Source: an uncultured Bacteroidota bacterium (lineage in GTDB: Bacteria > Bacteroidota > Bacteroidia > Flavobacteriales > Flavobacteriaceae). Taken from it: a stretch of DNA of 35,489 nt. This document shows, piece after piece, positions 14,353-29,849 of this stretch (within the stretch, counting starts at the first letter, position 1; the number at the start of each line of letters is the position of its first letter). The stretch lies in contig CACCIQ010000009.1 of NCBI GenBank assembly GCA_902546095.1, forward strand, positions 1 to 35,489, in the 5' to 3' direction. Made by a program: the position numbers and the translations under genes. Below the pieces are notes generated by a model that saw only the letters and a program-made list of their open reading frames with translations, made no database searches and was not told the DNA's origin.

Positions 14353-15324
14353 ATGGTTGAACCAATTTTAAAAGAAAATAAAGATAGATTTGTCATCTTC
14401 CCAATTAAACATCACGATTTATGGGAGTGGTATAAAAAATGTGAAGCTAGTTTTTGGACTGCTGAAGAAATTGACCTACACCAAGATTTGACAGATTGGA
14501 AAACAAAATTAAATGATGATGAAAGATATTTCATCAAACATATTTTAGCATTCTTTGCTGCATCTGACGGAATCGTTAATGAAAATCTTGCCGAGAATTT
14601 TGTTAATGAGGTTCAGTATTCTGAAGCCAAGTTTTTTTATGGATTTCAAATAATGATGGAAAATATTCATTCAGAAACTTATTCATTATTGATAGATACG
14701 TATGTTAAAGACGATGCTGAAAAAGATAAACTATTTAATGCAATTGAAACCTTTCCAGCAATTAAAAAGAAAGCAGATTGGGCATTAAAGTGGATTGAGT
14801 CTGACTCATTTGCAGAAAGATTAATAGCATTTGCAGGTGTTGAAGGTATCTTTTTTTCAGGTGCATTCTGTTCGATATTCTGGTTAAAGAAAAGAGGACT
14901 CATGCCTGGTTTAACTTTTTCAAATGAACTTATTTCAAGAGATGAAGGTGTACACTGTGATTATGCCGTACACCTGCACAATAATCACCTAGTAAATAAA
15001 GTTCCTAAAGAAAGAATCACTGAGATTTTGACTGATGCATTAGAAATAGAAAAAGAGTTTATTACAGAATCACTCCCAGTGAGTCTAATTGGAATGAATG
15101 CAAAACTAATGACTCAATATTTGGAATTTGTAACCGATAGACTTTTGGTTGAGCTTAACTGTGATAAAGTTTATAACTCAACAAATCCATTTGAATTCAT
15201 GGATATGATTTCTTTACAAGGAAAAACAAACTTCTTTGAAAAAAGAGTTTCGGAGTATCAAAAAGCTGGAGTATTAAATAATGATACTAGATCTGAAGAG
15301 ATCAGTTTTGATGAAGATTTTTAA
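14353..15324 (+). CDS. nrdB: Ribonucleoside-diphosphate reductase beta subunit, class I
   Basis: NrdB generates the radical used by NrdA to reduce ribonucleotides to deoxyribonucleotides. The 323-residue protein keeps the carboxylate-histidine metal ligands: Asp72 (AASDG), Glu103 and His106 (MENIHSETY), Glu164 (GVEGIFF), Glu198 and His201 (RDEGVHCDY). Tyr110 occupies the radical position. The sequence around the start and the metal site resembles eukaryotic R2 more than E. coli NrdB. The C-terminal EISFDEDF is the acidic/aromatic tail that docks on NrdA. nrdA follows after 31 nt. Confidence 0.95.
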
Positions 15325-15355
15325 TTAAATTTATAAGAACAACAACTAGTACCAA

Positions 15356-17803
15356 ATGTTTGTAGTAAAAAGAGACGGCCACAAGGAGCCAGTAATGTTT
15401 GATAAGATAACGGCAAGAATTAAAAAGCTTTGCTATGGTCTTAACCCACTTGTGGATCCAGTCAGAGTTTCAATGAGAGTTATTGAAGGTCTCTATGATG
15501 GTGTAACTACATCAGAGCTTGATAACCTTGCTGCAGAAGTTGCTGCTACAATGACTACAACTCATCCAGACTATGCTAATTTAGCTTCTAGAATTTCTGT
15601 TTCAAACCTTCACAAAAACACAAAGAAATCATTCTCACAAACTATGGATGATTTGTATAATTATGTGAATCCAAGGACAAATAAAAAAGCTCCATTATTG
15701 TCAGACGAGGTTTATAAAGTAATTAAGAAAAATGCTGAGAAACTTGATTCCACAATTATTTATAACAGAGATTTCAACTATGATTATTTTGGATTCAAAA
15801 CACTTGAGAGATCATATCTTCTAAAGTTAAATGGAGTTACCGTTGAGAGACCGCAACATATGTTGATGAGGGTTTCTATTGGTATTCATTTGGATGATCT
15901 AGACGCTGCAATTGAAACATATACTTTGATGTCAAAAAAGTATTTTACTCATGCAACTCCTACATTATTTAATTCAGGAACACCAAAGCCTCAGCTATCC
16001 TCATGTTTTTTATTGACAATGCAGGATGATAGCATAGATGGTATATACAATACATTAAAGCAAACAGCAAAAATTTCTCAATCAGCTGGTGGTATCGGAT
16101 TATCCATACATAATATTAGAGCAACCGGTTCATACATAGCTGGGACTAATGGTACTTCAAATGGTATAGTTCCTATGTTGAGAGTTTTCAATGATACAGC
16201 TAGATACGTTGATCAAGGTGGAGGAAAACGAAAAGGATCATTTGCAATATACATTGAGCCATGGCATTCAGATATATTTGACTTTTTAGAATTAAAGAAA
16301 AATCATGGTAAAGAGGAGATGAGAGCAAGAGACTTGTTTTATGCAATGTGGATTCCAGACTTATTCATGAAAAGAGTTGAAAGTAATGAAGAGTGGACTT
16401 TAATGTGTCCAAATGAGTGTCCCGGATTGTATGATACACACAGTGAAGAGTTTGAAAAACTTTATTTAAAGTACGAGAAGGATCAAAAAGGAAGAAAGAC
16501 AATTAAGGCAAGAGAGCTTTGGGAAAAAATATTAGAAGCTCAAATTGAAACTGGTACTCCGTACATGTTATACAAGGACGCATGTAACAGAAAGTCAAAT
16601 CAAAAAAACTTAGGTACAATCAGATCTTCAAATCTTTGTACTGAAATATTAGAGTATACTTCTAAAGACGAAATTGCTGTATGCAACCTTGCATCAATTG
16701 CTCTTCCAATGTTTGTTAAGAATAATTCTTTTGACCACAAGGAACTATTTAAAGTAACTAAAAGAGTTACTAAGAATTTGAATAAAGTAATTGATAGAAA
16801 TTATTATCCGGTTAAGGAAGCTGAGAATTCAAATTTTAGACATAGACCAATTGGATTAGGAGTACAAGGTCTTGCTGACACATTCATAAAATTAAGAATG
16901 CCTTTTACATGTGATGATGCAAAAACCCTAAACCAAGAAATTTTTGAAACAATTTATTTTGCTGCTTTGACCGCATCAATGGAAGAAGCAATTAAAGAGG
17001 GGGCATATAAATCTTATAAAGGGTCTCCAATTTCTAAAGGTGAATTTCAACACAATATGTGGGGTATTAAAGATGATGAATTAAGCGGAAGATGGGATTG
17101 GGATGGTCTTAGAAAAGAAATTAAAAAGAATGGCGTGAGAAACTCATTATTGGTTGCACCTATGCCTACTGCTTCAACCGCTCAAATACTTGGAAACAAT
17201 GAATGTTTTGAGCCTTATACATCAAACATATACACAAGAAGAGTTCTTTCAGGTGAATTTATTGTTGTAAACAAACATCTTTTAGAAGATCTTGTAAAAT
17301 TAGGTTTGTGGACTGAAGAGTTAAAGCAAGAGTTAATGAAAGCAAATGGATCAATCCAACACATAGATGGAATTCCTGAGGATATTAAAGAGCTTTACAG
17401 AACAGTTTGGGAACTAAAAATGAAAGATGTAATTGATATGGCTAGACACAGAGGATATTTCATTGATCAGTCTCAGTCATTAAATTTATTTATGGAAGGC
17501 GCTACAATGGCCAAGTTAACATCAATGCATTTTTATGCATGGAAATCAGGTTTAAAAACTGGAATGTATTACTTAAGAACAAAGTCAGCTGTAGATGCAA
17601 TTAAATTTACACTCGATAATACTAAGAAAGAAGAAAAGGTTAAAGAAGAGGTTGCTGCAACAGCATCTGTCGCTGAACCTCCACCAACTGCTGATGCCGT
17701 TTCTCAAATCCCTGTTGAGCCATTAACTGCAGAAGAATTAAAGGAGATGATCGAAAAAAACAAGAATGATGAGGGAGATGATTGCTTAATGTGTGGTTCC
17801 TAA
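15356..17803 (+). CDS. nrdA: Ribonucleoside-diphosphate reductase alpha subunit, class I
   Basis: NrdA is the catalytic and regulatory subunit. The 815-residue protein has an N-terminal ATP cone (about 1-90) for overall activity control, then the ten-stranded barrel. Active-site residues are Cys217 (QLSSCFLL), Asn426-Cys428-Glu430 (SNLCTE) and Cys443 (IAVCNLAS), numbering nearly the same as in mammalian R1. The mobile C-terminal Cys pair is Cys810/Cys813 (CLMCGS), preceded by an Ala/Pro-rich linker. It forms an operon with nrdB and ends 2 bp from the convergent phosphate transporter gene, leaving no room for an independent terminator between them. Confidence 0.97.
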
Positions 17804-17805
17804 TT

Positions 17806-20109
17806 TTAATCTTGATTTTCAAATTGTGCAGGGCTGATTTTCTCATCATACTTATCTGAGTACAACTCTAAAATTTCAATATAATTTTCAGTAATTTTTT
17901 TAGTTTTTTTAAGGATTTCAAAATAAAGCCTTGTATTCCTTGGGCTAGATTCTTTCTCTTTTGTTCGAGCAATTTGAGATTTAATTTTTGATTCCAGAGA
18001 ATTACTTACACTTTCTTTAATCTCAAAAATTGATTGAATTTGTTTGTAATTTTTATTTTCAAAAGTTTCTATAACCTTATTGAAAAATAAGTCTAAATCT
18101 ATTTCAATCTCCTTGAGCTCTCTTAATTGTTGGAATGTTAGCCCCCTATGTTCATTTTTAAAATGTTTAGAACTGGACTTTAATAACGATTGAGTGAGTC
18201 TTGTTATATTTTCTAAAGATTCAAGAACATTCATATGAAAATTAGACGCAGATTGTGAAGTTGCTTCATCTAAGTTTTTAATAAAATAGAAAACATTATT
18301 AGCGATAAGATCTACATCTTTATCTAGTTTATTGACTATTGATTCACTGTCTTTTAATAGTAAAATATTTTTTGAGCTAATTCCTGTTAGTAGATTTTTA
18401 TATAGCTTACTAATTCTTTTTGAAAATTTGGTAATGTTTTTAGAGCTTTCAAAAATTACACCTTTTATTGATTTACTTTCAATTAATTCTAGCTCTTCCT
18501 CTTCAATTTCTTTTGTTCTTCTTTCTTTATGAGTAAAGTAATTTTTAGTCAAAACTATTGCCACTATAAGAACTAAAAGGTATAAAGCATATTGATCAAA
18601 ATAATAGATAATTGAAGCAATTAGACCTGAAGCCAAAAAGGCAATTAGTGCAGTCATAAGCCATCCGCCAATTACATTAATTACACCTGCAACTCTGTAA
18701 GCAGCACTGTCACTTCCCCACGCCCTATCTGCTAAAGATGTTCCCATAGCAACCATAAATGTTACATATGTTGTTGAAAGTGGTAGCTTGTAAGATGTAG
18801 CTATTGATATTAAAATTGCAGCTACTACTAAATTAATTGAAGCTCTAATTTTATCAAATGCAGGTCTATCTTTTCTAAGTATTAGCGTGTTTACTTTTGG
18901 TTTTATGTACTGTCTCTCAATAAAATTAATTGAATTATTTGGAAGTATTTTTAAAAAACTTTTTTGAAAATAAGCCCCTAATCTAACTAGTCCTCTAGAA
19001 AGAAAATTTGGTTCAAATCTTTCAATTGTTTCTTCTTGTCTTGATAAATCAATGGATGTTTTTATAACAGATTTAGCTTTTGAAGAAGTCCATAATGTAA
19101 CTATCATAATTACACCTGCACCAAGCAGTATCAATGTTGGTGCTGCGACTTTTTCTGATAATGCGCCCATAAAGTATGCATCAGCTTCAACTCCAGAGCC
19201 AATCCACGCAAGGTATGATTGATATCCAGCAATTGGCACACCAATAAAGTTCACAAGGTCATTCCCTGCAAATGCTAATGCTAATGCAAATGTTCCAACA
19301 CAAATTACAATTGTATAGATATTTACTTTTAAAATGGAATTGATTAAATAAGATAAAAATGTTAAAAACAAAAGTGATACAATAACAATTGATACTAGAT
19401 TATTGTCTATATAGTTTGAAAGAGTACTCCCATTTAAAATTTCAAAACTACTTGATGAGTATGGTGTTCCTTTTAATCCCTTAATTACAATGAAATAAAA
19501 TATTGATGTTAAGGCGATTCCTCCAAATATTGAACCCAACCATTTCTTTTTTTCTTCAAATTTAAAAGACAGAACTAATCTGGATAAAAACTGAACCAAT
19601 GCCCCTATTGAAAAGGCAACTAAGACGGACAAAAATATTCCAAAAATTATTTGAGTTGCTTTAGACGTGTTTATGTATGTTGATAAATCTATAAAAGCAT
19701 CGCTGCTTGATGAAATTTTAATTATTGATATGACAACAGCAGCACCTAAAAGTTCAAAAACAATGGAAACTGTTGTTGAGGTTGGAAGACCATAAGAATT
19801 AAACAAGTCTAATAATAATATGTCTGTTATCATAACTGCAATAAATATTATCATGATTTCAGAGAATAGAAACATTTCAGGATTGAATATTCCTTTCCTG
19901 GCAACTTCCATCATTCCACTTGATGACATTGCGCCAAAAGCAACACCCAAGCTAGCAATAATCATTAAGGTTTTAAAGGAAACTACTTTTGATCCAATTG
20001 CTGAGTTTAAAAAGTTTACAGCATCATTACTCACTCCAACCATCAAATCAATAATTGCTAATATTCCAAGGATTATGACAAGTATTAAATAGTAGTCTTG
20101 CATCAACAA
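17806..20109 (-). CDS. PiT-family inorganic phosphate transporter with C-terminal PhoU-like domain
   Basis: The 767-residue protein is longer than a plain PiT carrier (about 400-500). The N-terminal part (about 1-520) has multiple membrane helices with both PiT signatures: SNDAVNFLNSAIGS near the start and AFAGNDLVNFIGVPIAGY near residue 280. These family carriers move phosphate with H+ or Na+ into the cytoplasm. The C-terminal part (about 540-760) is soluble, helical and charged, like the PhoU/DUF47 proteins that control phosphate carriers, so carrier and regulator appear fused. The gene begins 14 nt after a TonB-dependent receptor gene on the same strand and probably shares its Pho-box-like promoter. 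It converges on nrdA with a 2-bp gap. Confidence 0.93.
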   Translation of the reverse strand: MLMQDYYLILVIILGILAIIDLMVGVSNDAVNFLNSAIGSKVVSFKTLMIIASLGVAFGAMSSSGMMEVARKGIFNPEMFLFSEIMIIFIAVMITDILLLDLFNSYGLPTSTTVSIVFELLGAAVVISIIKISSSSDAFIDLSTYINTSKATQIIFGIFLSVLVAFSIGALVQFLSRLVLSFKFEEKKKWLGSIFGGIALTSIFYFIVIKGLKGTPYSSSSFEILNGSTLSNYIDNNLVSIVIVSLLFLTFLSYLINSILKVNIYTIVICVGTFALALAFAGNDLVNFIGVPIAGYQSYLAWIGSGVEADAYFMGALSEKVAAPTLILLGAGVIMIVTLWTSSKAKSVIKTSIDLSRQEETIERFEPNFLSRGLVRLGAYFQKSFLKILPNNSINFIERQYIKPKVNTLILRKDRPAFDKIRASINLVVAAILISIATSYKLPLSTTYVTFMVAMGTSLADRAWGSDSAAYRVAGVINVIGGWLMTALIAFLASGLIASIIYYFDQYALYLLVLIVAIVLTKNYFTHKERRTKEIEEEELELIESKSIKGVIFESSKNITKFSKRISKLYKNLLTGISSKNILLLKDSESIVNKLDKDVDLIANNVFYFIKNLDEATSQSASNFHMNVLESLENITRLTQSLLKSSSKHFKNEHRGLTFQQLRELKEIEIDLDLFFNKVIETFENKNYKQIQSIFEIKESVSNSLESKIKSQIARTKEKESSPRNTRLYFEILKKTKKITENYIEILELYSDKYDEKISPAQFENQD

Positions 20110-20123
20110 ACTAAGATATTGAA

Positions 20124-22928
20124 TTAAAAGTTAATTGAGTACCCTATTGAGAATTTAATACCAGGATCTGCATAGCTAAAAACTTTTTTTGTTGCATTAA
20201 ATGATTCTGCAAAACTTTCTTTTTCACTTCCAAGAAGATTTTCAACTTTTAGATTAATTGATCTTTTATTATTAATCCCGAAACTTTTTGAGAATGTAAA
20301 GTTTAGACTTTCAAATGGTTGTGTATAAATGTCAGGATTTATCCCATTACCAACAACTTCAAGTGTTTTACCTTGCATATTGAAATATAATCCTGCTCTG
20401 GTTCCATTATCATTTCTGTAATCAATGCTGGTATTTATGAGGTAGGGGGATTGACCCTGAAGTTCTCTAGAACCACTTATTGTCTCACCATCCCTGATAG
20501 CCAAAGATCTAAGATTTCTTTCAGCTTCACCATACTTTTGATTAGATTCAATTATTGAAGCATTTATGTTTGCACTTAGCATAGAAGAAATATTTTTTCT
20601 TAATTCTAACTCTAAGCCATAGACTGTAGCGTTTCCTAGGTTTCTAGGTTGATAATTTTGTCTTGCAGATTCAAAATAGCTTAGCTCAATAGGATTTATG
20701 AAATTTTTATAAAATGCACTTATTGCAAAAAGCTGATTATTATCTCCAAAGTCCTCATATCTAATATCTAAATTATCAATGTAGGTAGGTTTTAAATCTA
20801 TATTTCCAATGAATACAATGTTTGATAAAGGGTCAAAAATTTGAGCAATTGACGCTTCCTTAAATGAAGGTCTGGCAGTAGTTTTAGAATAAGAAAAACG
20901 AAGATTAGCCTGCTCATTCAAGGTCCAAATGAAATTAGATGATGGAAATAAGTCAAAAGTATCGATGATCTTTTCATCATTAAATTCTTTGTCTCCAGAA
21001 CTGTCCTGACCAGTATAATATGTAAAGTATTTTTCTGCTCGTAAACCGATTATTGATCTAAAATTAGGATTGAATTTAAACTCAAATGATAAATATCCAG
21101 CTAAATTATTTTGATCAGAAACAAAACTTTTACCTCTTTGAATCAAACTATATGTTAAATCTATAAGGTTTCCACCAGTGTTTGAAGTGCTCCAAATATT
21201 TACATCCTTTAATATGTTATTTGCATCTCCATTATTTAGAGTCCCCATGTTCGTTGGGGAGTTTATAGTTGCAGCATAAATATTATAATCTCTTTCTTTG
21301 TAAGACCCAAAAATTCCAAATTTAAAAAGAGCATCATTTTTAAATATCTCCATTCTTTTTACAATATCAATTTTAGCAACATAATTGAATTCTTCTAGGT
21401 CCCTCCATATTCTTTTTGGTCTGTTATTTAGATTTATTACATATCGGCCTTCATCAGTTATTTTAAATGCAGTAGTTCTATCATCTTTATCTTGAATGGA
21501 TGATCTAGTTGGAGATAATTTCCAATCAATTTTCCAATTACCTTCAGCTAATGAATGAGTTCCTGAAAGAAGAATGTTTGTTATAGATCTTTCTGTATAC
21601 TGTAAGACACTTTTCTTGTAAGTATTAAAATCTGTATCCATTCTATCTTGAATAAAATCTCCAGCAGTAGATTCTCCATTTTGTATATGAAGAGCATTAA
21701 ATTTGATTTTAGAATTCACTGTTTTAAATGAAAGTCCACCCATACCGCTTAGTGTAGCTAATTCAACTCCATAGTCCCCTTTTTGAGTTACTGCTGGATC
21801 AAGTTCATATACAGATTTATTTTCATTTCGCATATATTCATTATTTTCTGCTCCCTCATAAAATTCTGATTCATTTTTAAATGATAAAGCCCCAAAATAA
21901 CCTAATTTGTTATCTCCATCTCCAATGCTTTTTTGATTACCCCCAGAAATTGAAAAACTATAATCACCCATATTAGACTGTCTTGTTCCAGCCATTGTTT
22001 TGGTGTATTTTTTGGTTTGTTCAGTTTGTATTGGATTGTTTAAAACATCTAAGAAACTGTATGTTTTAGTTGGATCTACAGGTAAAGATCTAGTTCCATC
22101 ATCAAACCCTAAAAAATCTGTTTTACCTCCCTCGTATCCAATAAAATTATTGATATAATGCATATTTGGGTTGTATGATGTCCCAATAGAAATTGATAGT
22201 TGTTTGTTGGTTGGAAATTCTTTTGTAACAACATTGATAATTCCACCAGTGAAATCAGCGGGGTTTTCGGCTGTTGAAGATTTAATTATGATAACATTAT
22301 CTAAAATATTTGTAGGAAATAAATCCATTTGAACTGTGTTCCTGTCTGGGTCTAAACCTGGTATATCAATTCCATTTAAAATCGATTTTGTATAACGATC
22401 TCCAAGCCCTCTTACATAAACGTATTTTCCACCTTGAACAGAAACTCCTGGTATTGATTTTACTGCAGATGCAATATCTGAGGCTCCACTACTTTTTATT
22501 CTTTGAGACGAAAGCCCATCAACTAAACTTGCAGATTTTTTTTGAAATGCCAATACTGATGCTTCAGTATTTTTTTTCGCACTTACAGAAACAACAACCT
22601 CATCTAAACCTTCAGCTAAAACTTCCATAGTTACATTAATAACATAGGGATCAATGGAATTAGTCACAACTTCGCTAATTTCAATTGTTTTGTATCCAAT
22701 GTAACTGAACTGAAGTGTGTATGATCCTTCATCTAAATAAATTTCAAAATTTCCATCAAAATCAGATGTTGTTCCTGTTCCAGTTTCTTTCACTAATATG
22801 TTTGCAAAAGGAATTGGGTCTTGAAAATCTGCATCAATTACAGTTCCTCTAATAATTGAATTTTGAGAAAATGAGTAAGAAATAAAAAGAATAAATATTG
22901 TTTTTAGAATAGTTGATTTATTTTTCAT
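20124..22928 (-). CDS. TonB-dependent outer-membrane receptor, putative phosphate-regulated
   Basis: The 934-residue protein has a signal peptide (about 1-21, ending in SFSQ), a CarboxypepD_reg-like domain (about 25-110, GTGTTSDFDGNFEI), a plug domain (about 130-240, with VRGLGDRYTKSILNGIDIPG) and a long beta barrel ending in Phe (GYSINF). Such receptors pull substrates over the outer membrane with TonB-ExbBD energy. The substrate is not readable from sequence. Its position 14 nt upstream of the PiT transporter and behind a Pho-box-like repeat suggests a phosphorus compound. A terminator separates it from the upstream lipoprotein gene, so it starts its own transcript. Confidence 0.93.
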   Translation of the reverse strand: MKNKSTILKTIFILFISYSFSQNSIIRGTVIDADFQDPIPFANILVKETGTGTTSDFDGNFEIYLDEGSYTLQFSYIGYKTIEISEVVTNSIDPYVINVTMEVLAEGLDEVVVSVSAKKNTEASVLAFQKKSASLVDGLSSQRIKSSGASDIASAVKSIPGVSVQGGKYVYVRGLGDRYTKSILNGIDIPGLDPDRNTVQMDLFPTNILDNVIIIKSSTAENPADFTGGIINVVTKEFPTNKQLSISIGTSYNPNMHYINNFIGYEGGKTDFLGFDDGTRSLPVDPTKTYSFLDVLNNPIQTEQTKKYTKTMAGTRQSNMGDYSFSISGGNQKSIGDGDNKLGYFGALSFKNESEFYEGAENNEYMRNENKSVYELDPAVTQKGDYGVELATLSGMGGLSFKTVNSKIKFNALHIQNGESTAGDFIQDRMDTDFNTYKKSVLQYTERSITNILLSGTHSLAEGNWKIDWKLSPTRSSIQDKDDRTTAFKITDEGRYVINLNNRPKRIWRDLEEFNYVAKIDIVKRMEIFKNDALFKFGIFGSYKERDYNIYAATINSPTNMGTLNNGDANNILKDVNIWSTSNTGGNLIDLTYSLIQRGKSFVSDQNNLAGYLSFEFKFNPNFRSIIGLRAEKYFTYYTGQDSSGDKEFNDEKIIDTFDLFPSSNFIWTLNEQANLRFSYSKTTARPSFKEASIAQIFDPLSNIVFIGNIDLKPTYIDNLDIRYEDFGDNNQLFAISAFYKNFINPIELSYFESARQNYQPRNLGNATVYGLELELRKNISSMLSANINASIIESNQKYGEAERNLRSLAIRDGETISGSRELQGQSPYLINTSIDYRNDNGTRAGLYFNMQGKTLEVVGNGINPDIYTQPFESLNFTFSKSFGINNKRSINLKVENLLGSEKESFAESFNATKKVFSYADPGIKFSIGYSINF

Positions 22929-22946: not shown

Positions 22947-22954
22947 CAAATATC
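22947..22954 (-). promoter_or_regulatory. -7 element of the TonB receptor - PiT operon
   Basis: The minus strand reads GATATTTG, five of six consensus positions of TAnnTTTG, 18 nt before the ATG at 22928. A TTG lies 17 bp upstream as a possible -33 box, and the proximal TTAAC repeat begins exactly 26 nt upstream of this element. Confidence 0.55.
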
Positions 22955-22975
22955 AAGTTTCAAGTGCAATACAAT

Positions 22976-22991
22976 GTTAAGCTATTGTTAA
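22976..22991 (-). promoter_or_regulatory. Pho-box-like 11-bp direct repeat upstream of TonB receptor - PiT
   Basis: On the minus strand TTAAC occurs twice, with starts 11 bp apart (TTAACAATAGCTTAAC). The spacing equals that of PhoB half-sites. The distance to the -7 element (26 nt) is identical to that in front of the second receptor gene. Confidence 0.6.
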
Positions 22992-22992
22992 T

Positions 22993-23025
22993 AAAAAACC
23001 CATCAGAATTAAACTGACGGGTTTT
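22993..23025 (-). terminator. Intrinsic terminator of the lipoprotein gene
   Basis: On the minus strand AAAACCCGTCAG pairs with CTGATGGGTTTT (one internal mismatch) around a 7-nt loop and is followed by a T run. It lies about 50 nt after the stop of the lipoprotein gene. The T run ends one base before the distal TTAAC repeat of the next promoter. Confidence 0.85.
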
Positions 23026-23073
23026 CTAACAACTAATAAAAGTATTTAATTAACGAACTATTAAAAAAATATT

Positions 23074-24588
23074 TTACAATCCATCTGCTCCTCTAGCTTT
23101 AGCCATTGACCATGCCCAAACTGTAACATCAGCTCCACCAGTTTGAGATGCTCTAGCAACATTAGTTACAAAAGATGCACCACCAATTGTTTTGCCATCT
23201 TCATAGTTAGCATTAGGAGTACTCGATTTATCATCAAAAATATCACCACCAGTTAAACTTGCTCCATCTGGAACATCAACTTGGAAATTTTTAAATACTA
23301 AATCACCATCAGTATAAGTTTTACTGTCAGCATCAGCATCTAATTCGAAATCTTTACCAGCCTGGAATCCAAATGCAACCAATCCATCAATTGTTCCAGT
23401 AGCTCCTTTTCTATTGTCATTATATTCTCCATCAGCAGCGCTAGAAGACCCAACTAAAGTAATTTTCTTTAACGTAAATTTACCTTTAGCAGATCCTTCA
23501 GGACCGTCAATTTCCATACCGTGATCTGAAGCTGCAGTTGCTATTACCATTGCATTTTCTACTGTACCAGAATAAGCTTGATCAATATCTAATCCATCAT
23601 CTCCTTGTCCCCAAACTAATAGGTTAGAAGCGTTAACAGTTCCGCCAAAAAATTCAATTCCATCATCAACATTTCCTACAACTTCAATATTGTCAATTAC
23701 AGTACCACTACCAACTCCTCCTAGTGTAAGCCCATTGATTTCATTATCTGCACCAATTTCTGCACCGCCATGTCTAATAGAAATATATTTCATTGATCCT
23801 GAATTATCAGAAGCATCTGACCCACCATATAATCCTCTTGTATCATCAGCAGGAATACCTTCAATTTGATATTCAGAAACATCACCTTTAAATGAACTAG
23901 GTGCTTTACCTAATACAAGTAATCCTCCCCATAAACCTCTGTTATCAACATTTAAGTTTGATCCAACACTTTCTCCTACTTTTATGTCATCTGAAACTGA
24001 AGTCATAATTATCGGTTTATCTGCTGTACCATTAGCAATTAATTTACCACCTCTTGCTACAGCTAAGAAGGATGCATTTGTTCCAGTTCCTCCTTCAGCT
24101 TTTAAGATTGTTCCTGCAGGAATGGTTAATGTAGCGCCATCTCCAACAAAAACTCTACCTTTAATTGTCCATATCTTGTCAGCTGTAAGTGTTCTATCTG
24201 ATGAGATTTCACCATTAAGAACAAAGTTTCCAGTAACATCAATTGTAACAGTAGCTACATTACTATCCAATGCACCGTCGTTAGCTTTATAAGTGAAAGA
24301 GTCTTCACCGTCTGCATTGTCGCTTGGTGTATAAGTTGCTTTGTTTCCACTAATATCTACAGAACCTTGTGAAGGTTGAGAAACTACGGAAAATGTCAGA
24401 TCATCTCCATCAGCATCTGTACCAACTAATGTTATGTCTACGCTTGAATTATTAGCTACCGTAATTGCAGCTGTTAGATCAACAACTTGGGGAGCAATAT
24501 TTACAACTGCATCCACCTCGTTGTCTTCGTTTGAACATGCAACAAATATAAATGCTGACATGATCAATAAAAAATTTATTTTTTTCAT
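23074..24588 (-). CDS. Putative surface lipoprotein with cadherin/Ig-like and beta-helix domains
   Basis: The 504-residue protein has a lipoprotein signal with Cys18 (FVACSNEDNE). The acidic residues after Cys fit a flavobacterial surface-export signal. Residues 30-117 form a cadherin/Ig-like module with DADGDDLTF and a DSFTYKANDG segment. From about 120 the sequence turns into Gly/Asp/Ala-rich repeats (for example TLTIPAGTILKAEGG and GGKLIANGTADKPIIMTS) that suggest a right-handed beta helix. I know this type as common beside TonB receptors in Bacteroidota, without an assigned function. It lies in the phosphate island and is followed by a clear terminator, so it is transcribed alone. A role as substrate-binding partner of the adjacent receptor is only inference. 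Confidence 0.8.
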   Translation of the reverse strand: MKKINFLLIMSAFIFVACSNEDNEVDAVVNIAPQVVDLTAAITVANNSSVDITLVGTDADGDDLTFSVVSQPSQGSVDISGNKATYTPSDNADGEDSFTYKANDGALDSNVATVTIDVTGNFVLNGEISSDRTLTADKIWTIKGRVFVGDGATLTIPAGTILKAEGGTGTNASFLAVARGGKLIANGTADKPIIMTSVSDDIKVGESVGSNLNVDNRGLWGGLLVLGKAPSSFKGDVSEYQIEGIPADDTRGLYGGSDASDNSGSMKYISIRHGGAEIGADNEINGLTLGGVGSGTVIDNIEVVGNVDDGIEFFGGTVNASNLLVWGQGDDGLDIDQAYSGTVENAMVIATAASDHGMEIDGPEGSAKGKFTLKKITLVGSSSAADGEYNDNRKGATGTIDGLVAFGFQAGKDFELDADADSKTYTDGDLVFKNFQVDVPDGASLTGGDIFDDKSSTPNANYEDGKTIGGASFVTNVARASQTGGADVTVWAWSMAKARGADGL

Positions 24589-24660
24589 TATTATTTAGTA
24601 TTAGTTGAGCTAAAATTATGTAATGGCGTTTAACTTAACGTTTCCTAAAAATCATCATAA

Positions 24661-24689
24661 TGTAACCTTTACATTATGCTAATGTTAAC
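24661..24689. promoter_or_regulatory. Second, degenerate Pho-box-like repeat in the divergent promoter region
   Basis: TGTAA at 24661, CATTA at 24672 and TGTTA at 24683 lie at exact 11-bp steps. The outer two match the TGTTA half-site well and the middle one poorly. The site is nearer the minus-strand lipoprotein gene (ATG at 24588) than the plus-strand MORN gene, so its target is uncertain. Confidence 0.4.
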
Positions 24690-24758
24690 AAAATAGATTT
24701 TTTTATGCATAAAAAATAAAAAACTAAACTATTGATAATCAATAAACTATAATGACTA

Positions 24759-24796
24759 TGTTAATTTAATGTTACGCAAATGTTAATTTAATGTAA
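24759..24796 (+). promoter_or_regulatory. Four-copy Pho-box-like repeat upstream of the MORN protein gene
   Basis: TGTTA occurs at 24759, 24770 and 24781 and TGTAA at 24792, each exactly 11 bp apart. Copies 1 and 3 share the whole 11-bp unit TGTTAATTTAA. This is the clearest tandem operator in the window and ends about 38 nt before the ATG at 24835. Confidence 0.65.
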
Positions 24797-24805
24797 AATA
24801 TTAAT

Positions 24806-24813
24806 TATATTTA
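24806..24813 (+). promoter_or_regulatory. Candidate -7 element of the MORN protein gene
   Basis: TATATTTA matches TAnnTTTG except for the last base and lies 21 nt before the ATG at 24835, just downstream of the four-copy repeat. Confidence 0.4.
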
Positions 24814-24834
24814 TTGAAATTAAATAACAGTATT

Positions 24835-25215
24835 ATGAAAAATCTATTCTTATTAATTAGTTTATTTTTTGTTAACTCAATCGTTTCTCAAAATGAAATC
24901 AAATATCAAGATCTAAATACAGAAGATCTTGAACATGTTTACAATAGATTTGATAGAGTGGTAAAAGTGGAAATTTTTCATGATAATGGGGAGTTATATC
25001 AAAAAGGGTATTTAAAAAACAATAAACTACATGGTAGGTGGGAGTCTTATGACATTGATGGAAATTTAGCTGTAATTGGAGAATTCATAAAAGGTAAAAA
25101 AACAGGAAAATGGTTTTTTTGGGGTAATAAGAATTTTACAGAGGTTAATTTTCAAAATAATAAAGTAATTAGCCATTTTAAATGGGAAAATCAAAATGTA
25201 GTTGCTGTTAAGTAA
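24835..25215 (+). CDS. Small secreted MORN-repeat protein
   Basis: I choose the ATG at 24835 (126 residues) because it begins a normal signal peptide (MKNLFLLISLFFVNSIVSQ); an upstream in-frame TTG would spoil it and fall in the promoter. The mature part holds two or three MORN_2-type repeats at about 50-100 (DNGELYQKGYLKNNKLHGRW, then GEFIKGKKTGKWFFW). Such proteins are sometimes misnamed as nicotinate nucleotide adenylyltransferases or antitoxins in flavobacterial genomes; nothing here supports either. MORN repeats form beta hairpins that may bind membranes or proteins. The gene has the best Pho-box-like operator in the window, so it is predicted to be induced on phosphate starvation. Its function is unknown. 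Confidence 0.75.
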   Translation: MKNLFLLISLFFVNSIVSQNEIKYQDLNTEDLEHVYNRFDRVVKVEIFHDNGELYQKGYLKNNKLHGRWESYDIDGNLAVIGEFIKGKKTGKWFFWGNKNFTEVNFQNNKVISHFKWENQNVVAVK

Positions 25216-25232
25216 TTAACTCCATTTATATC

Positions 25233-25259
25233 TTATCTAAAAATTAACCTTAAGTTAAC
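25233..25259 (+). promoter_or_regulatory. Pho-box-like repeat upstream of the receptor - phytase operon
   Basis: TTATC at 25233, TTAAC at 25244 and TTAAC at 25255 lie at exact 11-bp steps. The last copy begins 26 nt before the -7 element at 25281, the same distance as in front of the other receptor gene. Confidence 0.6.
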
Positions 25260-25280
25260 ATAGAGGATAGTGTAATAAAA

Positions 25281-25288
25281 TAATTTTG
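25281..25288 (+). promoter_or_regulatory. -7 element of the receptor - phytase operon
   Basis: TAATTTTG is a perfect TAnnTTTG match, 19 nt before the ATG at 25308. No -33 TTG is visible; the Pho-box-like repeat occupies that zone, which fits an activator-dependent promoter. Confidence 0.65.
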
Positions 25289-25307: not shown

Positions 25308-28019
25308 ATGAAAAATTACATTCTATTTATCTTTACCTTCCTAATGTTTGGTTTATCATATTCTCAAACATCTACTTTAAAAGGTAAAATTACAGATGCT
25401 AATGGTTTTGCATTACCTGGCGCAACAATTCAAGCTTCACCATCAGGAAAAGCTGTGGTTACTGACTTTAATGGATTTTATACTATCGTTGGTATTGAAG
25501 GAGATCAGATTATAAAGGTCTCATACATTGGATTTGAAACTGTTGAACAATCTATTTCAATTGAAGATGGTTCAAATACTTTAGACTTCACTTTAGAAAC
25601 AGCTGTAAGTGAATTGGCTCAAGTTGTAGTATCCGGATTTCAAAGTGGAATTATTAAAGGACTCAATAAGCAAAAATCCGATGTTAATGTAACCAATGTT
25701 GTTTCGGCAGATCAGATTGGAAAATTTCCCGATGATAATGTTGGTGATGTAATTAAAAGAATTGCTGGTGTTAGTATGCAAGGTGATCAAGGTGAAGCAA
25801 GGAATATTGTAATGAGAGGATTAGGACCTGGTCAAAATTCTGTAACATTAAATGGAGATAGAATTCCATCAGCAGAAGGTGATAATAGAAACGTTCAGTT
25901 AGATCTAATACCATCAGCAATGATTCAGTCAATTGAGGTCAATAAAACATTAACACCTGATATGGAGGCTGATGCAATTGGTGGTTCTGTCAACTTAATT
26001 ACCAGATCAAATCCAACAGGCTTTAGGGCATCTGCAACTGTAGCTGGAGGTGGAAACCCAATAAGATCCGGTGGGTATAATTCAAATGTAACAGCACTAA
26101 TTGGAAATGAAGTTTCTGAAAAATTTAGCTATACATTATCTGCTACTGTTCAAACTAGAGATTATGGTTCTGATAATATTGAGTTTGAATGGAACGATCC
26201 AGCTGATTGGGCAGATGATGGAGCTATTGGTGAAATGGATATAAGAAGATATGATGTCAAAAGAACAAGACGAAGTTTAAGTTTAAACTTAGATTGGAAC
26301 TTAAATGATAATAATCAGCTCTACTTTAAATCAATATATAACCACAGAGATGACTGGGAAAATAGATTTAGAATGAGAGTTGGAAGTATTGATATGGATG
26401 ATATGACAGTTAGAGTTAGAAGACAAACTAAAGGTGGAGGTAATAATGATAGAAATAAAAATACAAGATTAGAGGACCAAAAGACTCAGAAATATTCTTT
26501 AGGTGGTGATCATCAATTTGGTAAACTTGGAATGGATTGGAAAGTGAGTTTTTCAGCTGCTAGTGAGGATAGGCCTGATGAAAGATATGTAAGATATGAG
26601 CAAAAAGGAGTTCCAATTTCTTCTCTTGATATTTCAAACCCAAGATTCCCAAATTTTATTTATCAAGGAGATAATTGGACTGAAGCAAGTAAGTTTGGTT
26701 ACAAAAAAACTGAGCAAGCATTTAAAGGTACTGAAGAAACTAATACTTCTTTTTCATTAGACTTTGATTTACCATATAATGTCAATGATGAAATAAAATT
26801 TGGACTCAAATACAAAAGTAAAACCAAAGACAGAAATGATATTTGGTATGAATATGATAACGACTTACCTAACATGGATGGAGTTTCATTTTTTAATGCT
26901 ACACTTTCTGATTACCAGCCTGGAAAAAAATATCAAAGTGGAAATTTTATGACTGCTGAAGCATTAGGTAGCTTATCGTTAGGAGGCCCTAGTGATCCTA
27001 ATTTTGACTCCTATGTTATGGATGAATTTGCAGGAGGTAATTACGATGCAGATGAAAATATAACTGCATTTTATGCGATGATTAAAGATAAGTTAGGAGA
27101 TAATTTAACTTTAATTGCTGGAGCTAGAATTGAAAGTACAAATGTTGAATATACAGGTCAGGTTTTTGATGAAGAAGAGGATGAGACACCAGCAGATATC
27201 GGATCAGTAACTGGAGATAATAGTTATACTAATGTTCTTCCAAATCTAACTTTACAATGGGATTTAAATGATAAATTGAATTTTAACTTTGCATTAACTC
27301 AATCATTATCTAGACCATCATATTATGATCTAGTTCCATACGAATATTCAAATTCTGATGATAAAGAACTTGCACTTGGAAACCCTGATTTAAAAGCCTC
27401 TTTATCAACTAACATTGATTTTATGGCTGAATATTATTTTAAAGGATTAGGTTTATTTTCTGTAGGGTTTTTTAATAAAAGTATTGATGACTGGATTTAT
27501 AAGTTTGCTACTAATAATTATACATATGCTGGTGATGATGGTTATGAAATGAGTCAACTTAGAAATGGTGAAAAAGCTACTTTGAATGGTTTTGAAATTG
27601 GTTTTCAAACTAAGCTCTTGAATAACTTCACTTTTATGGGCAACTATACTTCAACCAATTCTTCGACAGACAGAGTTGAAGGTAGAGATGACATTCCACT
27701 AGTTGGTCAAGTTGATAATATGTATAACTTATCGTTAGCCTATGAAGCAAATAAATTTTTTGTTAGGGCATCAATGAATTATGCAAGTGAAGCATTGGAT
27801 GAGTTGAGTGGAGATGCTTATGAAGACAGATATTATGATGAGCAAACATTTTTGGACGTAAATGCTAACTACAAAATTACTGACAAACTTAGTATATTTG
27901 CTGAGGGGAAAAACCTAACAAATCAGCCTTTAAGATATTATCAAGGTACTGTTGAAAAAACTATGCAACTTGAATATTATAATTTAAGCTGGAATGTAGG
28001 TTTAAAATATGATTTTTAA
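25308..28019 (+). CDS. TonB-dependent outer-membrane receptor linked to phytase
   Basis: The 903-residue protein has a signal peptide (about 1-19, ending in SYSQ), a CarboxypepD_reg-like domain (about 22-105, LPGATIQASPSGKAVVTDFN), a plug domain (about 125-235, with IKRIAGVSMQGDQGEARNIV and ADAIGGSVNLITRS) and a barrel ending in Phe (GLKYDF). It is of the large flavobacterial receptor type used for organic nutrients as well as metals. The stop overlaps the phytase start by one base (TAATG), so the two proteins are made together. Inferred substrate: phytate, a lower inositol phosphate, or a metal complex of these. It has little close similarity by eye to the receptor at 20124-22928, so they probably differ in substrate. 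Confidence 0.93.
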   Translation: MKNYILFIFTFLMFGLSYSQTSTLKGKITDANGFALPGATIQASPSGKAVVTDFNGFYTIVGIEGDQIIKVSYIGFETVEQSISIEDGSNTLDFTLETAVSELAQVVVSGFQSGIIKGLNKQKSDVNVTNVVSADQIGKFPDDNVGDVIKRIAGVSMQGDQGEARNIVMRGLGPGQNSVTLNGDRIPSAEGDNRNVQLDLIPSAMIQSIEVNKTLTPDMEADAIGGSVNLITRSNPTGFRASATVAGGGNPIRSGGYNSNVTALIGNEVSEKFSYTLSATVQTRDYGSDNIEFEWNDPADWADDGAIGEMDIRRYDVKRTRRSLSLNLDWNLNDNNQLYFKSIYNHRDDWENRFRMRVGSIDMDDMTVRVRRQTKGGGNNDRNKNTRLEDQKTQKYSLGGDHQFGKLGMDWKVSFSAASEDRPDERYVRYEQKGVPISSLDISNPRFPNFIYQGDNWTEASKFGYKKTEQAFKGTEETNTSFSLDFDLPYNVNDEIKFGLKYKSKTKDRNDIWYEYDNDLPNMDGVSFFNATLSDYQPGKKYQSGNFMTAEALGSLSLGGPSDPNFDSYVMDEFAGGNYDADENITAFYAMIKDKLGDNLTLIAGARIESTNVEYTGQVFDEEEDETPADIGSVTGDNSYTNVLPNLTLQWDLNDKLNFNFALTQSLSRPSYYDLVPYEYSNSDDKELALGNPDLKASLSTNIDFMAEYYFKGLGLFSVGFFNKSIDDWIYKFATNNYTYAGDDGYEMSQLRNGEKATLNGFEIGFQTKLLNNFTFMGNYTSTNSSTDRVEGRDDIPLVGQVDNMYNLSLAYEANKFFVRASMNYASEALDELSGDAYEDRYYDEQTFLDVNANYKITDKLSIFAEGKNLTNQPLRYYQGTVEKTMQLEYYNLSWNVGLKYDF

Positions 28020-29038
28020 TGTTTAAAAAATTATTTTTTGCTAGTTTTATTTTTACTAGCATTTTAAATTCACAAGAGCCTAATTTATTAGGCTCTTTGT
28101 TATATATTGAAGTTGAAGCTGATGTAGAAACAGAGCCAGTTTTTGCTGGTGATGATGCAGCAGATGATATGTGTGTTTTAGAAAACCTAATCAATCCAGA
28201 AAAAAGCTTAATTGTTTCATCTGATAAAAAATTCGGCATAATTGTATATGACTTAGAGGGCAATAAGCTCTATGATTATGAGGTTGGGAGGATAAATAAT
28301 GTGGACATAATTCCATCCAAGTTCAGTCAAGAAAAATACTTAGTTGCCGGAACAAATAGAACATACAATAGTATAGATCTTTATATTTTTAATTCCAATG
28401 GAGAATTAGAAAAAAATATAGTTCGTGAAGTAGTTCCAAGTTTAAAAGATGTATATGGAATTACTTTTTATGATGATAAGTATAATACATATTTATTTGT
28501 AAGTGATAAAAAAGGAAATGTAGAGCAGTGGAGTTATAATAATGATGAATCAAGTCCCGAAATTAAATTTGAAAGAAAATTAAGATTTTCCTCTTTAGTT
28601 GAAGGTATAGTAGCAGATGAATCTAAAGGAAAAGTTTACATAGGTCAAGAAAGAAAAGGTATATGGGAAATTAATGTTTTTCCAACAACTGATGAGGAAA
28701 GAAAATTAATATTTAAGAAAAATAAATTTTTTAAACCTGACTTTGAAGGTTTGGCATTGAGGGACGATGGCGACAGTAAAGGGTATTTAATTTCTTCTGT
28801 TCAAGGATCTAATGGTTATTTACTTATTGATAGAGAATCATTAAAGGCTAAGACTTTTTTCAGAGTTATATCTGGAAAAACTATTGATGGTACAACTGAA
28901 ACTGATGGTATTGATGTAACTTCAATTTCTACTAAAAAATTTCCTAAGGGATTTTTTATTGCTCAAGATGATGATAATGATGGTTTGAATCAAAATTTTA
29001 AATTAGTAGATTGGAGAAAAATTATAAATGAGAATTAG
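28019..29038 (+). CDS. Beta-propeller phytase
   Basis: Beta-propeller phytases remove phosphate from myo-inositol hexakisphosphate in a Ca2+-dependent reaction. The 339-residue protein has a signal peptide (about 1-18) and the family motifs in order: DDAADD (45-50), NPEKSLIVSSDKK, GRINNVDI (90-97), SDKKGNVEQWSY, VEGIVADESKGKVYIGQE, PDFEGLALRDDGDSKGYLIS, TDGIDVTSI, and the closing FIAQDDDNDGLNQNFKLVDW. The usual DDPAIW near the N-terminus is DDMCVL here, so that motif has diverged. The protein is exported to the periplasm or outer surface. It is translationally coupled to the upstream receptor and overlaps the next gene by 11 nt. The family assignment is firm; in-vivo substrate is inferred. 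Confidence 0.93.
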   Translation: MFKKLFFASFIFTSILNSQEPNLLGSLLYIEVEADVETEPVFAGDDAADDMCVLENLINPEKSLIVSSDKKFGIIVYDLEGNKLYDYEVGRINNVDIIPSKFSQEKYLVAGTNRTYNSIDLYIFNSNGELEKNIVREVVPSLKDVYGITFYDDKYNTYLFVSDKKGNVEQWSYNNDESSPEIKFERKLRFSSLVEGIVADESKGKVYIGQERKGIWEINVFPTTDEERKLIFKKNKFFKPDFEGLALRDDGDSKGYLISSVQGSNGYLLIDRESLKAKTFFRVISGKTIDGTTETDGIDVTSISTKKFPKGFFIAQDDDNDGLNQNFKLVDWRKIINEN

Positions 29039-29849
29039 TATTCTACTTACACTTATTGTATTTCAATTTTCTTATTCGCAGAAAATTACAACAGACATAA
29101 GTTTATCAAAAATTATTGATGAAACATCTGGATTAGAGATTATAAATGGTCAATTTGTTACACACAATGATTCTGGAGGGGATCCAGCATTATATTATTT
29201 AGATGAAAAAGGAAAAATAGTTGAGACCCGAAAGATTGCTGGGGTTAAAAATACTGATTGGGAGGACATAACTAAAGACGAAGAGTTTTTATATGTTGCT
29301 AACATGGGGAATAATTATGATACAAGAAAAAATTTATCTATTGTTAAAATCCCAATTCAAAAGTCTTCTAATGAAAATGTTGAGGTGATAAATTTTTCAT
29401 ATCCAGAACAAAAAAAATTTAGGAGAATTTATAGAAGATCAGAGTATGATGCTGAAGCTTTAATCTCTTTTGAGGATAAACTGTTAATATTCACAAAAAA
29501 TAAACGAAAAAAAATTACTGAAATCTACTCTCTTCCAAAAAATGGAGGAAATTATCAGGCAAAAAAAATTGGTAGTTTAAATACTGATTCAATAGTCACT
29601 GGTGGTGATTACGATAAAGAAACAAATACATTAGCTCTGACATCAACTATCAAGTTTGATGAATATTACGTTTTAATAATTTCTGATTTTAGTTTAAACA
29701 ATAAAAATCAAAAAATTGATATGTATGAAATCCCAATCGGGAAAACTCAGGTTGAGGCTATAAAAATTATTGATCCAACAACATTCTGGATAACCTCTGA
29801 AGATGAAAAAAGTAGCTCAGCTGCAAGGTTGATGAAATTTAAATTATAA
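29028..29849 (+). CDS. Secreted propeller-like protein downstream of phytase
   Basis: I recognise no named family with certainty. The 273-residue protein has a signal peptide (about 1-17, ending in SYSQ) and repeated beta-strand segments suggestive of a propeller: DETSGLEIINGQFVTHNDSG, DWEDITKDEEFLYVANMGNN, YDAEALISFEDKLLIFTKN and VEAIKIIDPTTFWITSEDE. Similar secreted proteins are frequent in flavobacteria without a known role, and the fold hints at relation to phytase-like or SMP-30-like propellers. It overlaps the phytase gene by 11 nt and so belongs to the same transcript; it may act on a phytase product or an organic phosphate, which is inference. It has no cysteine-rich or sorting-tail features. 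Confidence 0.7.
   Translation: MRISILLTLIVFQFSYSQKITTDISLSKIIDETSGLEIINGQFVTHNDSGGDPALYYLDEKGKIVETRKIAGVKNTDWEDITKDEEFLYVANMGNNYDTRKNLSIVKIPIQKSSNENVEVINFSYPEQKKFRRIYRRSEYDAEALISFEDKLLIFTKNKRKKITEIYSLPKNGGNYQAKKIGSLNTDSIVTGGDYDKETNTLALTSTIKFDEYYVLIISDFSLNNKNQKIDMYEIPIGKTQVEAIKIIDPTTFWITSEDEKSSSAARLMKFKL

Follow-up and report, generated by a model that had tools for sequence, protein, structure and literature searches.

We analysed direct repeats in a 35,489-nt stretch of DNA from an uncultured member of the Flavobacteriaceae (hereafter the window; G+C content 29.7%; contig C9 of a 1.07-Mb assembly that is 59.7% complete), in which TTAAC or TGTTA units recur with an 11-bp period. The repeats sit among genes for a Pit-type phosphate transporter, two TonB-dependent receptors (TBDT1 and TBDT2), an FII-type lipoprotein, a small MORN-like protein and a beta-propeller phytase. 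Judged from sequence, they are very probably Pho boxes bound by a PhoB-like OmpR-family regulator of this flavobacterial genus (probability roughly 0.87). A sequence-only reading of the window had proposed this, and two results now support it: the exact form of the promoter geometry described below was found only upstream of phosphate-locus genes (13 of 13 matches in 23 genomes), and in 22 of the 28 genera examined an 11-bp repeat of TGTTA type stands upstream of the phoB-like gene.

Repeat arrays and promoter geometry

Direct reading bore out the four places at which the sequence-only reading had located 11-bp spacing (Table 1). Three are strong arrays of at least two direct repeats with an 11-bp period, and the fourth (24661-24689), already described there as degenerate, is weak. 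Its further claim that the proximal TTAAC begins 26 nt upstream of the -7 element at both receptor genes proved exact, with TTAAC at 22980 leading to GATATTTG at 22954 on the minus strand (TBDT1) and TTAAC at 25255 leading to TAATTTTG at 25281 (TBDT2). The array upstream of the MORN gene was read as TGTTA at 24759, 24770 and 24781 and TGTAA at 24792. When compared with 300 dinucleotide shuffles of the whole window, searched on both strands, TTAACN6TTAAC was present 3 times (shuffle mean 0.19, maximum 2), the third copy lying at 27283 within the TBDT2 gene. The four-unit TGTWA array occurred once and the TTAAC pair with a -7 element at 26 nt twice, and neither was seen in any of the 300 shuffles. 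The three-copy exact pattern had no match in the window's own genome.

The triplet at 24661-24689 was dropped as an established array, being degenerate, overlapping a 23-nt inverted repeat (24656-24678) and not being seen in the homologous stretch of locus L079. The inverted repeat itself, CATAATGTAA-CCT-TTACATTATG, is perfect and lies in the FII/MORN intergenic region; it is present in the near-identical locus L076, and none was seen in L079.

Conservation was assessed in 23 genomes of the genus (assemblies 55-87% complete) and, for spacing, in 28 genus loci, including the window and one other locus of its own genome. In sister genomes, the intergenic repeats were kept while the spacers had diverged, as seen for the TBDT1 Pho box in L079 and L082-L084. 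Of 25 intergenic regions that precede phosphate-locus genes, 18 contained the exact pair TTAACN6TTAAC, versus none of 118 others, and other spacings from 5 to 20 bp reached at most 4 of the 25; several of the 28 loci are near copies, so that these counts and p-values overstate independence. The repeats are located preferentially upstream of phosphate-acquisition genes, a preference that fails for the bare repeat genome-wide and for the geometry with one mismatch.

Measured by script, the proximal unit lay 26 nt from the -7 octamer in 15 of 17 promoters (six of TBDT1, seven of TBDT2 and four of OprP, near copies included), and the other two (TBDT2 of L082 and L084) also give 26 nt if the one-mismatch -7 element TAATTTAG is accepted. 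The -7 elements are predicted and the offsets rest on sequence; on these positions the repeats would overlap the -35 zone at a fixed distance. At TBDT1 of L079, units lie 84, 73 and 51 nt upstream of the start codon, the gene-nearest one 26 nt from the -7 element.

All 13 exact matches to TTAACN6TTAACN22ANNTTTG in the 23 genomes are upstream of TBDT1 (G000, G006, G008, G012, G017, G021), TBDT2 (G000, G010, G017) or OprP-Pit (G001, G013, G019, G020). Twelve are situated 17-20 nt upstream of the TBDT1, TBDT2 or OprP start, and the thirteenth (G017:C4:60901) is the TBDT1 site of L076. The pattern was derived from the window, and OprP promoters played no part in defining it. A further 12 matches with one mismatch are phosphate-locus promoters, including OprP-Pit in G004, G007 and G009, although one of them (G022:C18:13) was assigned solely by sequence identity with the G002 copy; once these are counted, phosphate matches occur in 18 of the 23 genomes. 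The OprP gene of G007 (L255) was recovered as two overlapping partial matches, suggestive of either a frameshift or an error in the assembly.

The MORN promoter follows a second layout, in which TGTTA units point at the gene, opposite in polarity to the TTAAC-forward arrays. The last unit begins 14 nt before TATATTTA/G in the window, L077 and L082-L084, and 13 nt before it in L081; TATATTT is missing from the MORN promoter of L079. A pattern of this layout gave 6 matches in the 23 genomes, all MORN promoters by coordinates, versus 3 for the control, and since it was derived from the loci later found it shows selectivity, not independence. The TTAAC-forward layout, with the proximal unit 26 nt before the -7 element, serves TBDT1, TBDT2 and OprP, and also FII in G002 and G022.

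The -7 octamer is stated to span -12 to -5 in F. psychrophilum. If this holds here, TTAAC units would start near -38 and -49, and TGTTA units near -26, -37, -48 and -59. The latter positions are near those of E. coli, and the TTAAC-forward set has the opposite polarity. PhoB protomers bind head to tail, so that in the two layouts the Bacteroidetes RNA polymerase would meet opposite faces of them. We suggest, tentatively and at rather less than even odds, that the PhoB-like regulator activates from both polarities, with a set distance for each (26 nt for TTAAC-forward, 14 nt for TGTTA-forward), and that at least one layout relies on a contact that is not known for E. coli PhoB and sigma-70. Should both polarities prove functional, they would pose a clean question about PhoB-type activation at Bacteroidetes promoters.

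The PhoB-like regulator and promoters across the family

Assemblies of the genus contain at most two OmpR-type regulators above the PF00486 cut-off, with one weak extra match in G019. They are of two kinds, PhoB-like and RprY-like, according to NCBIfam typing of two PhoB-like members and one RprY-like member. Naming the regulator through solved structures was abandoned, as only general OmpR-family matches were returned, and the NCBIfam model NF053854 matched all 149 family genomes, mostly many times, exceeding its cut-off in one. A PhoR/PnpS-like kinase gene comes after the PhoB-like gene, pointing to a PhoB/PhoR pair in the lineage.

In most loci showing both neighbours the PhoB-like gene lies beside trmB. 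In three genomes (G010, G013, G001) it directly follows Pit, in the order OprP-Pit-PhoB-PhoR in G013 and G001, and repeats are found upstream of this operon as well as upstream of Pit-PhoB-PhoR in G010. A tree of 60 rows placed the Pit-linked copies in one starred clade (100/98) with the trmB-linked copies, with the caveats of an unsettled bootstrap and of G013 and G001 copies cut short by the open reading frame caller. Most simply, the two would be one gene in two places. A comparison of L077 (7608-8291), L110 and L111 with L134 (9907-10590) suggests that the PhoB-PhoR pair has moved, within one genus, between the trmB neighbourhood and the Pit locus.

Flavobacterium phragmitis and F. panacis each have a single close homologue (80% to the L213 query, against 38-39% for the runner-up), an ortholog with 57% identity to the genus protein. 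Its neighbours, in the order FII-TBDT-phoB-phoR, match the order Fjoh_0546 to Fjoh_0543, and TGTTACCAACTTGTTA is found between the TBDT gene and phoB in both species.

The predicted Pho box is also present in front of the regulator's own gene or operon. Twenty-eight phoB promoters from as many genera were taken from the best-scoring 30 loci of 149 family genomes, which is not a random draw, L187 and L203 being left out as distant copies. The pattern [ATG]GTWAN6[ATG]GTTA, found in the 22 genera mentioned above, was present in just 3 of 227 control promoters, which came from phytase loci of partly different genera. A pair at 22 bp was found in 17 phoB promoters versus 5 controls. The pattern was formed after viewing the sequences, a bias against which the spacing scan guards: it peaks at 11 and 22 and shows lesser excesses at 15 and 16. 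Measured from TATCTTT, most units fall around 43, 54, 65 and 76 nt upstream, and 10 of 26 promoters have an additional one at 12 nt.

Among 31 TBDT-phytase promoters, one per genus, identical 5-mers at distance 11 were found in 26, compared with 82 of 227 controls; distances of 17, 22 and 33 were somewhat raised, and most other spacings were near background. After nine promoters without a recognisable -7 element had been dropped from the position count, 14 of 22 showed TGTTA or TGTTG at exactly 39 nt, a site equal to TTAAC at 37 nt only where the sequence is TGTTAAC. In Kriegella sp. EG-1, TTAACATTCTCTTAAC lies upstream of an FII-TBDT1 pair. The TBDT-phytase promoters of F. phragmitis and F. 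panacis had no match to the strict patterns. PhoU, chosen as a marker for pst operons, had no match in the 23 genus genomes (60 genomes searched), and the PstS and PhoX families were outside this search.

Known systems and alternative readings

The kind of element is known. Pho boxes of E. coli PhoB consist of two 11-nt direct repeats, most conserved as CTGTCAT, and resemble the present arrays as 11-bp tandem direct repeats upstream of phosphate genes (PMC4415409). The half-site here is TGTTA/TTAAC rather than TGTCA, the -7 element is of the TAnnTTTG type, and the repeats are reversed at TBDT1, TBDT2 and OprP. E. coli Pho boxes keep characteristic promoter distances and overlap the -35 region, and the Bacillus subtilis PhoP box, TTAACA, has the same half-site and 11-bp spacing in another phylum and with other promoters. 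The cyanobacterial SphR box, CTTAACCT with a 3-bp linker, shares the TTAAC core, the 11-bp period and the position upstream of phosphate genes; it belongs to another phylum and is reported with at least three tandem units (PMC1906773). Within the flavobacteria, DAP-seq (DNA affinity purification sequencing) of Riemerella anatipestifer PhoP, an OmpR-type regulator with a PhoR partner that binds its own promoter, gave TTTAACA as the most conserved nucleotides; the likeness is one of motif and type, and the section describing the motif, which the authors liken to that of E. coli ArcA, gives no unit spacing or -7 geometry (PMC9603813). The half-site had been put forward as potentially lineage-specific. 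It does differ from the E. coli form, but is not private to the lineage, and 'lineage-specific' is too strong because TTTAACA is reported for Riemerella PhoP and CTTAACCT for SphR.

Under phosphate depletion of Flavobacterium johnsoniae, genes of these types show strong induction, the FC column of the published table listing 8.02 for TBDT Fjoh_0545, 9.91 for FII Fjoh_0546, 5.76 for phytase Fjoh_1367, 9.22 for TBDT Fjoh_1368 and 3.06 for PhoB Fjoh_0544, whereas PhoR Fjoh_0543 (0.76) was not induced (PMC8115612). This regulon is alike in pairing phytase with a TBDT, and a TBDT and FII with adjacent phoBR. It is unlike in that no motif for binding is given, and 'Pho box', 'motif' and 'promoter' are all absent from the main text as terms (PMC8115612). 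By analogy with these gene types, OprP excepted, the genes of the window may be induced by phosphate starvation. Bacteroides fragilis PhoB binds a pst promoter fragment, reported without a motif in the text available, and in a 2015 paper plcP gene clusters of marine bacteria are marked with predicted Pho boxes, with no flavobacterial consensus in its accessible part. The open-licence literature, in its accessible text, yielded no flavobacterial or Bacteroidetes Pho box whose units are spaced, and placed relative to the -7 element, as they are here. Within the limits of that literature, the novelty lies in linking the element to phosphate genes of this lineage, in its strict promoter geometry and in its occurrence in two polarities.

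The sequences themselves demonstrate the repeats, their spacing and conservation, their association with these genes, orthology among the regulator copies and the Pit linkage of some of those copies; binding, phosphorylation, activation and the phosphate signal are inferred. That the (phosphorylated) regulator binds may be supposed from the Riemerella PhoP analogy. Under phosphate scarcity, the PhoR-like kinase would phosphorylate the PhoB-like regulator, which would bind the array in tandem, one protomer per 11-bp unit in head-to-tail orientation, and recruit the flavobacterial housekeeping RNA polymerase. The target promoters would have a -7 box (xAnnTTTG) and TTAAC in place of the -33 element. 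Two TonB receptors, the phytase and the FII lipoprotein would be switched on, and in relatives the OprP-Pit(-PhoB-PhoR) operon. The finding would join a regulon without a binding site in F. johnsoniae to a site without a clear phosphate regulon in Riemerella. Phosphate limits growth in parts of the ocean, where flavobacteria are important degraders of organic matter, and the motif with its strict geometry makes parts of the phosphate regulon of uncultured flavobacteria readable from sequence alone and suggests what some genes without an assigned function might do (FII, the MORN protein and the gene after the phytase).

Several observations weigh against the Pho-box reading. The NCBIfam PhoB models match the regulator below their curated cut-offs (201.6 versus 270; 201.3 versus 296.2), and the window's own assembly contains no PhoB-like match, plausibly due to its incompleteness (59.7% complete), so that the gene was taken from relatives. 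The trmB-linked phoB genes of the genus have no conserved exact pair, one three-unit site with two mismatches being present in L132. Of the 25 intergenic regions at phosphate genes, 7 lack the exact pair, TBDT2 of L079-L081 has TTAAT as its proximal unit, and the 13 exact geometry matches represent three promoter kinds in related species. With up to one mismatch the 26-nt pattern had 59 matches versus 57 for its reversed control, of which the exact ones are not separable from the total, and it was rejected as a selective marker even though 25 of the 59 (13 exact and 12 more) are phosphate-locus promoters; 30 of the 59 were examined with their loci, and the others were placed by coordinates in known loci or left unassigned. 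The bare pair TTAACN6TTAAC occurred 5 times in the own genome versus 15 for the reversed control, and TTAACN6TTAACAT 61 versus 49 times over the genus, and the bare motif was likewise rejected as a genome-wide marker. The enrichment at phosphate genes expected by the sequence-only reading was obtained with the 26-nt geometry and not with bare (TTAACN6)2. In F. johnsoniae, OprP Fjoh_0542 (-1.3) was not induced (PMC8115612). For Riemerella PhoP, 583 peaks were reported (PMC9603813), and pstS was raised in the corresponding mutant, so this protein may not be a dedicated phosphate regulator.

The bare repeat also marks SusC-type promoters, which raises the alternative of a general TonB-receptor promoter motif serving whatever nutrient. 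Thirty TTAACN6TTAACAT matches viewed with their loci included, besides phosphate promoters, two groups of SusC type and some conserved sites close to other genes. Two of the three other exact matches in the own genome (L001 and L002) lie upstream of SusC-type-looking receptors, the two groups carry the repeat across genomes of the genus, and a third group appeared among the one-mismatch matches (L237, L238, L241); the SusC-type identity was assigned by eye. In these promoters, however, the proximal TTAAC abuts the -7 element, as in TTAACATATTTG, a conserved arrangement unlike that of the phosphate promoters. Furthermore, the 26-nt geometry is found at OprP-Pit, which contains no TonB receptor, and the 11-bp repeat precedes the regulator gene in most genera examined, leaving a general receptor motif very unlikely. 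The SusC-type layout is seen at 1501-1516 of both L001 and L002 and in their relatives L145-L149, L151, L155, L156, L160, L162, L164, L165, L169 and L171. In L153 (1501-1529, G009), overlapping TTAACN6TTAAC pairs form three units upstream of a 217-aa reading frame.

We attach similarly slight credence to the idea that phosphate genes happen to be controlled by some other protein binding direct repeats, be it the RprY-like regulator, one with an ArcA-like function or one outside the OmpR family. Direct repeats of about 10-11 bp are frequent targets of OmpR-family regulators, the Riemerella motif has been likened to the one of E. coli ArcA, and the RprY-like gene is the sole OmpR-type gene found in the own assembly. 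Yet no exact pair was found in the two RprY-like loci scanned (L138, L143), it is the PhoB-like and not the RprY-like gene that is physically linked to Pit in three genomes, and repeats stand upstream of the PhoB-like gene across the family. Chance in A+T-rich DNA is barely credible: TTAAC is common at about 30% G+C and, in the own genome, the reversed control outnumbers the bare pair, but the shuffles, the preference for 11-bp spacing and conservation beside diverged spacers all speak against it.

Features of the locus

Coordinates are collected in Table 1. The closest named records, found via TBDT1, are labelled uncultured Bacteroidetes, Flavobacteriales, Flavobacteriaceae or Cryomorphaceae, and from such record names we presume a marine origin of the nearest records.

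Table 1. Predicted regulatory elements and genes in the window
Feature	Position	Strand	Remarks
Pit-type phosphate transporter (PHO4)	17806..20109	-	PF01384, E=9.1e-29
TBDT1, TonB-dependent receptor, Fjoh_0545 type	20124..22928	-	PF14905; type from domain set and neighbours
-7 element GATATTTG of TBDT1	22947..22954	-	26 nt from proximal TTAAC
Pho box (predicted) of TBDT1: TTAACAATAGCTTAAC	22976..22991	-	2 units, 11 bp; exact TTAAC N6 TTAAC
FII-type lipoprotein candidate	23074..24588	-	bacterial Ig domain; homologues (32-39% identity) adjoin phoB in two Flavobacterium species
Degenerate triplet TGTAA 24661, CATTA 24672, TGTTA 24683	24661..24689	.	weak, doubtful member
Four-unit array, 11-bp period, upstream of MORN gene	24759..24796	+	faces FII on opposite strand
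-7-like element TATATTTA of MORN promoter	24806..24813	+	14 nt after start of last TGTAA
Small MORN-repeat-like protein	24838..25215	+	PF07661 weak: 20.8 bits, cut-off 29.6
Pho box (predicted) of TBDT2	25233..25259	+	3 units, 11 bp: TTATC 25233, TTAAC 25244, TTAAC 25255
-7 element TAATTTTG of TBDT2	25281..25288	+	26 nt from proximal TTAAC
TBDT2, TonB-dependent receptor paired with phytase, Fjoh_1368 type	25308..28019	+	
Beta-propeller phytase	28019..29038	+	PF02333, E=9.3e-66

A 273-aa protein (29028-29849) follows the phytase in the window, in the phytase loci of the genus and also in L087 and L088. It has no match in Pfam or NCBIfam and is a candidate for a new phosphate-scavenging gene. At 14353-17803 the window carries genes of 323 and 815 aa, and at the same position L077 (2017-4998) and L082 (326-3307) carry genes of 567 and 424 aa. 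Both pairs were read by eye as putative ribonucleotide reductases, and the difference between them suggests local gene replacement.

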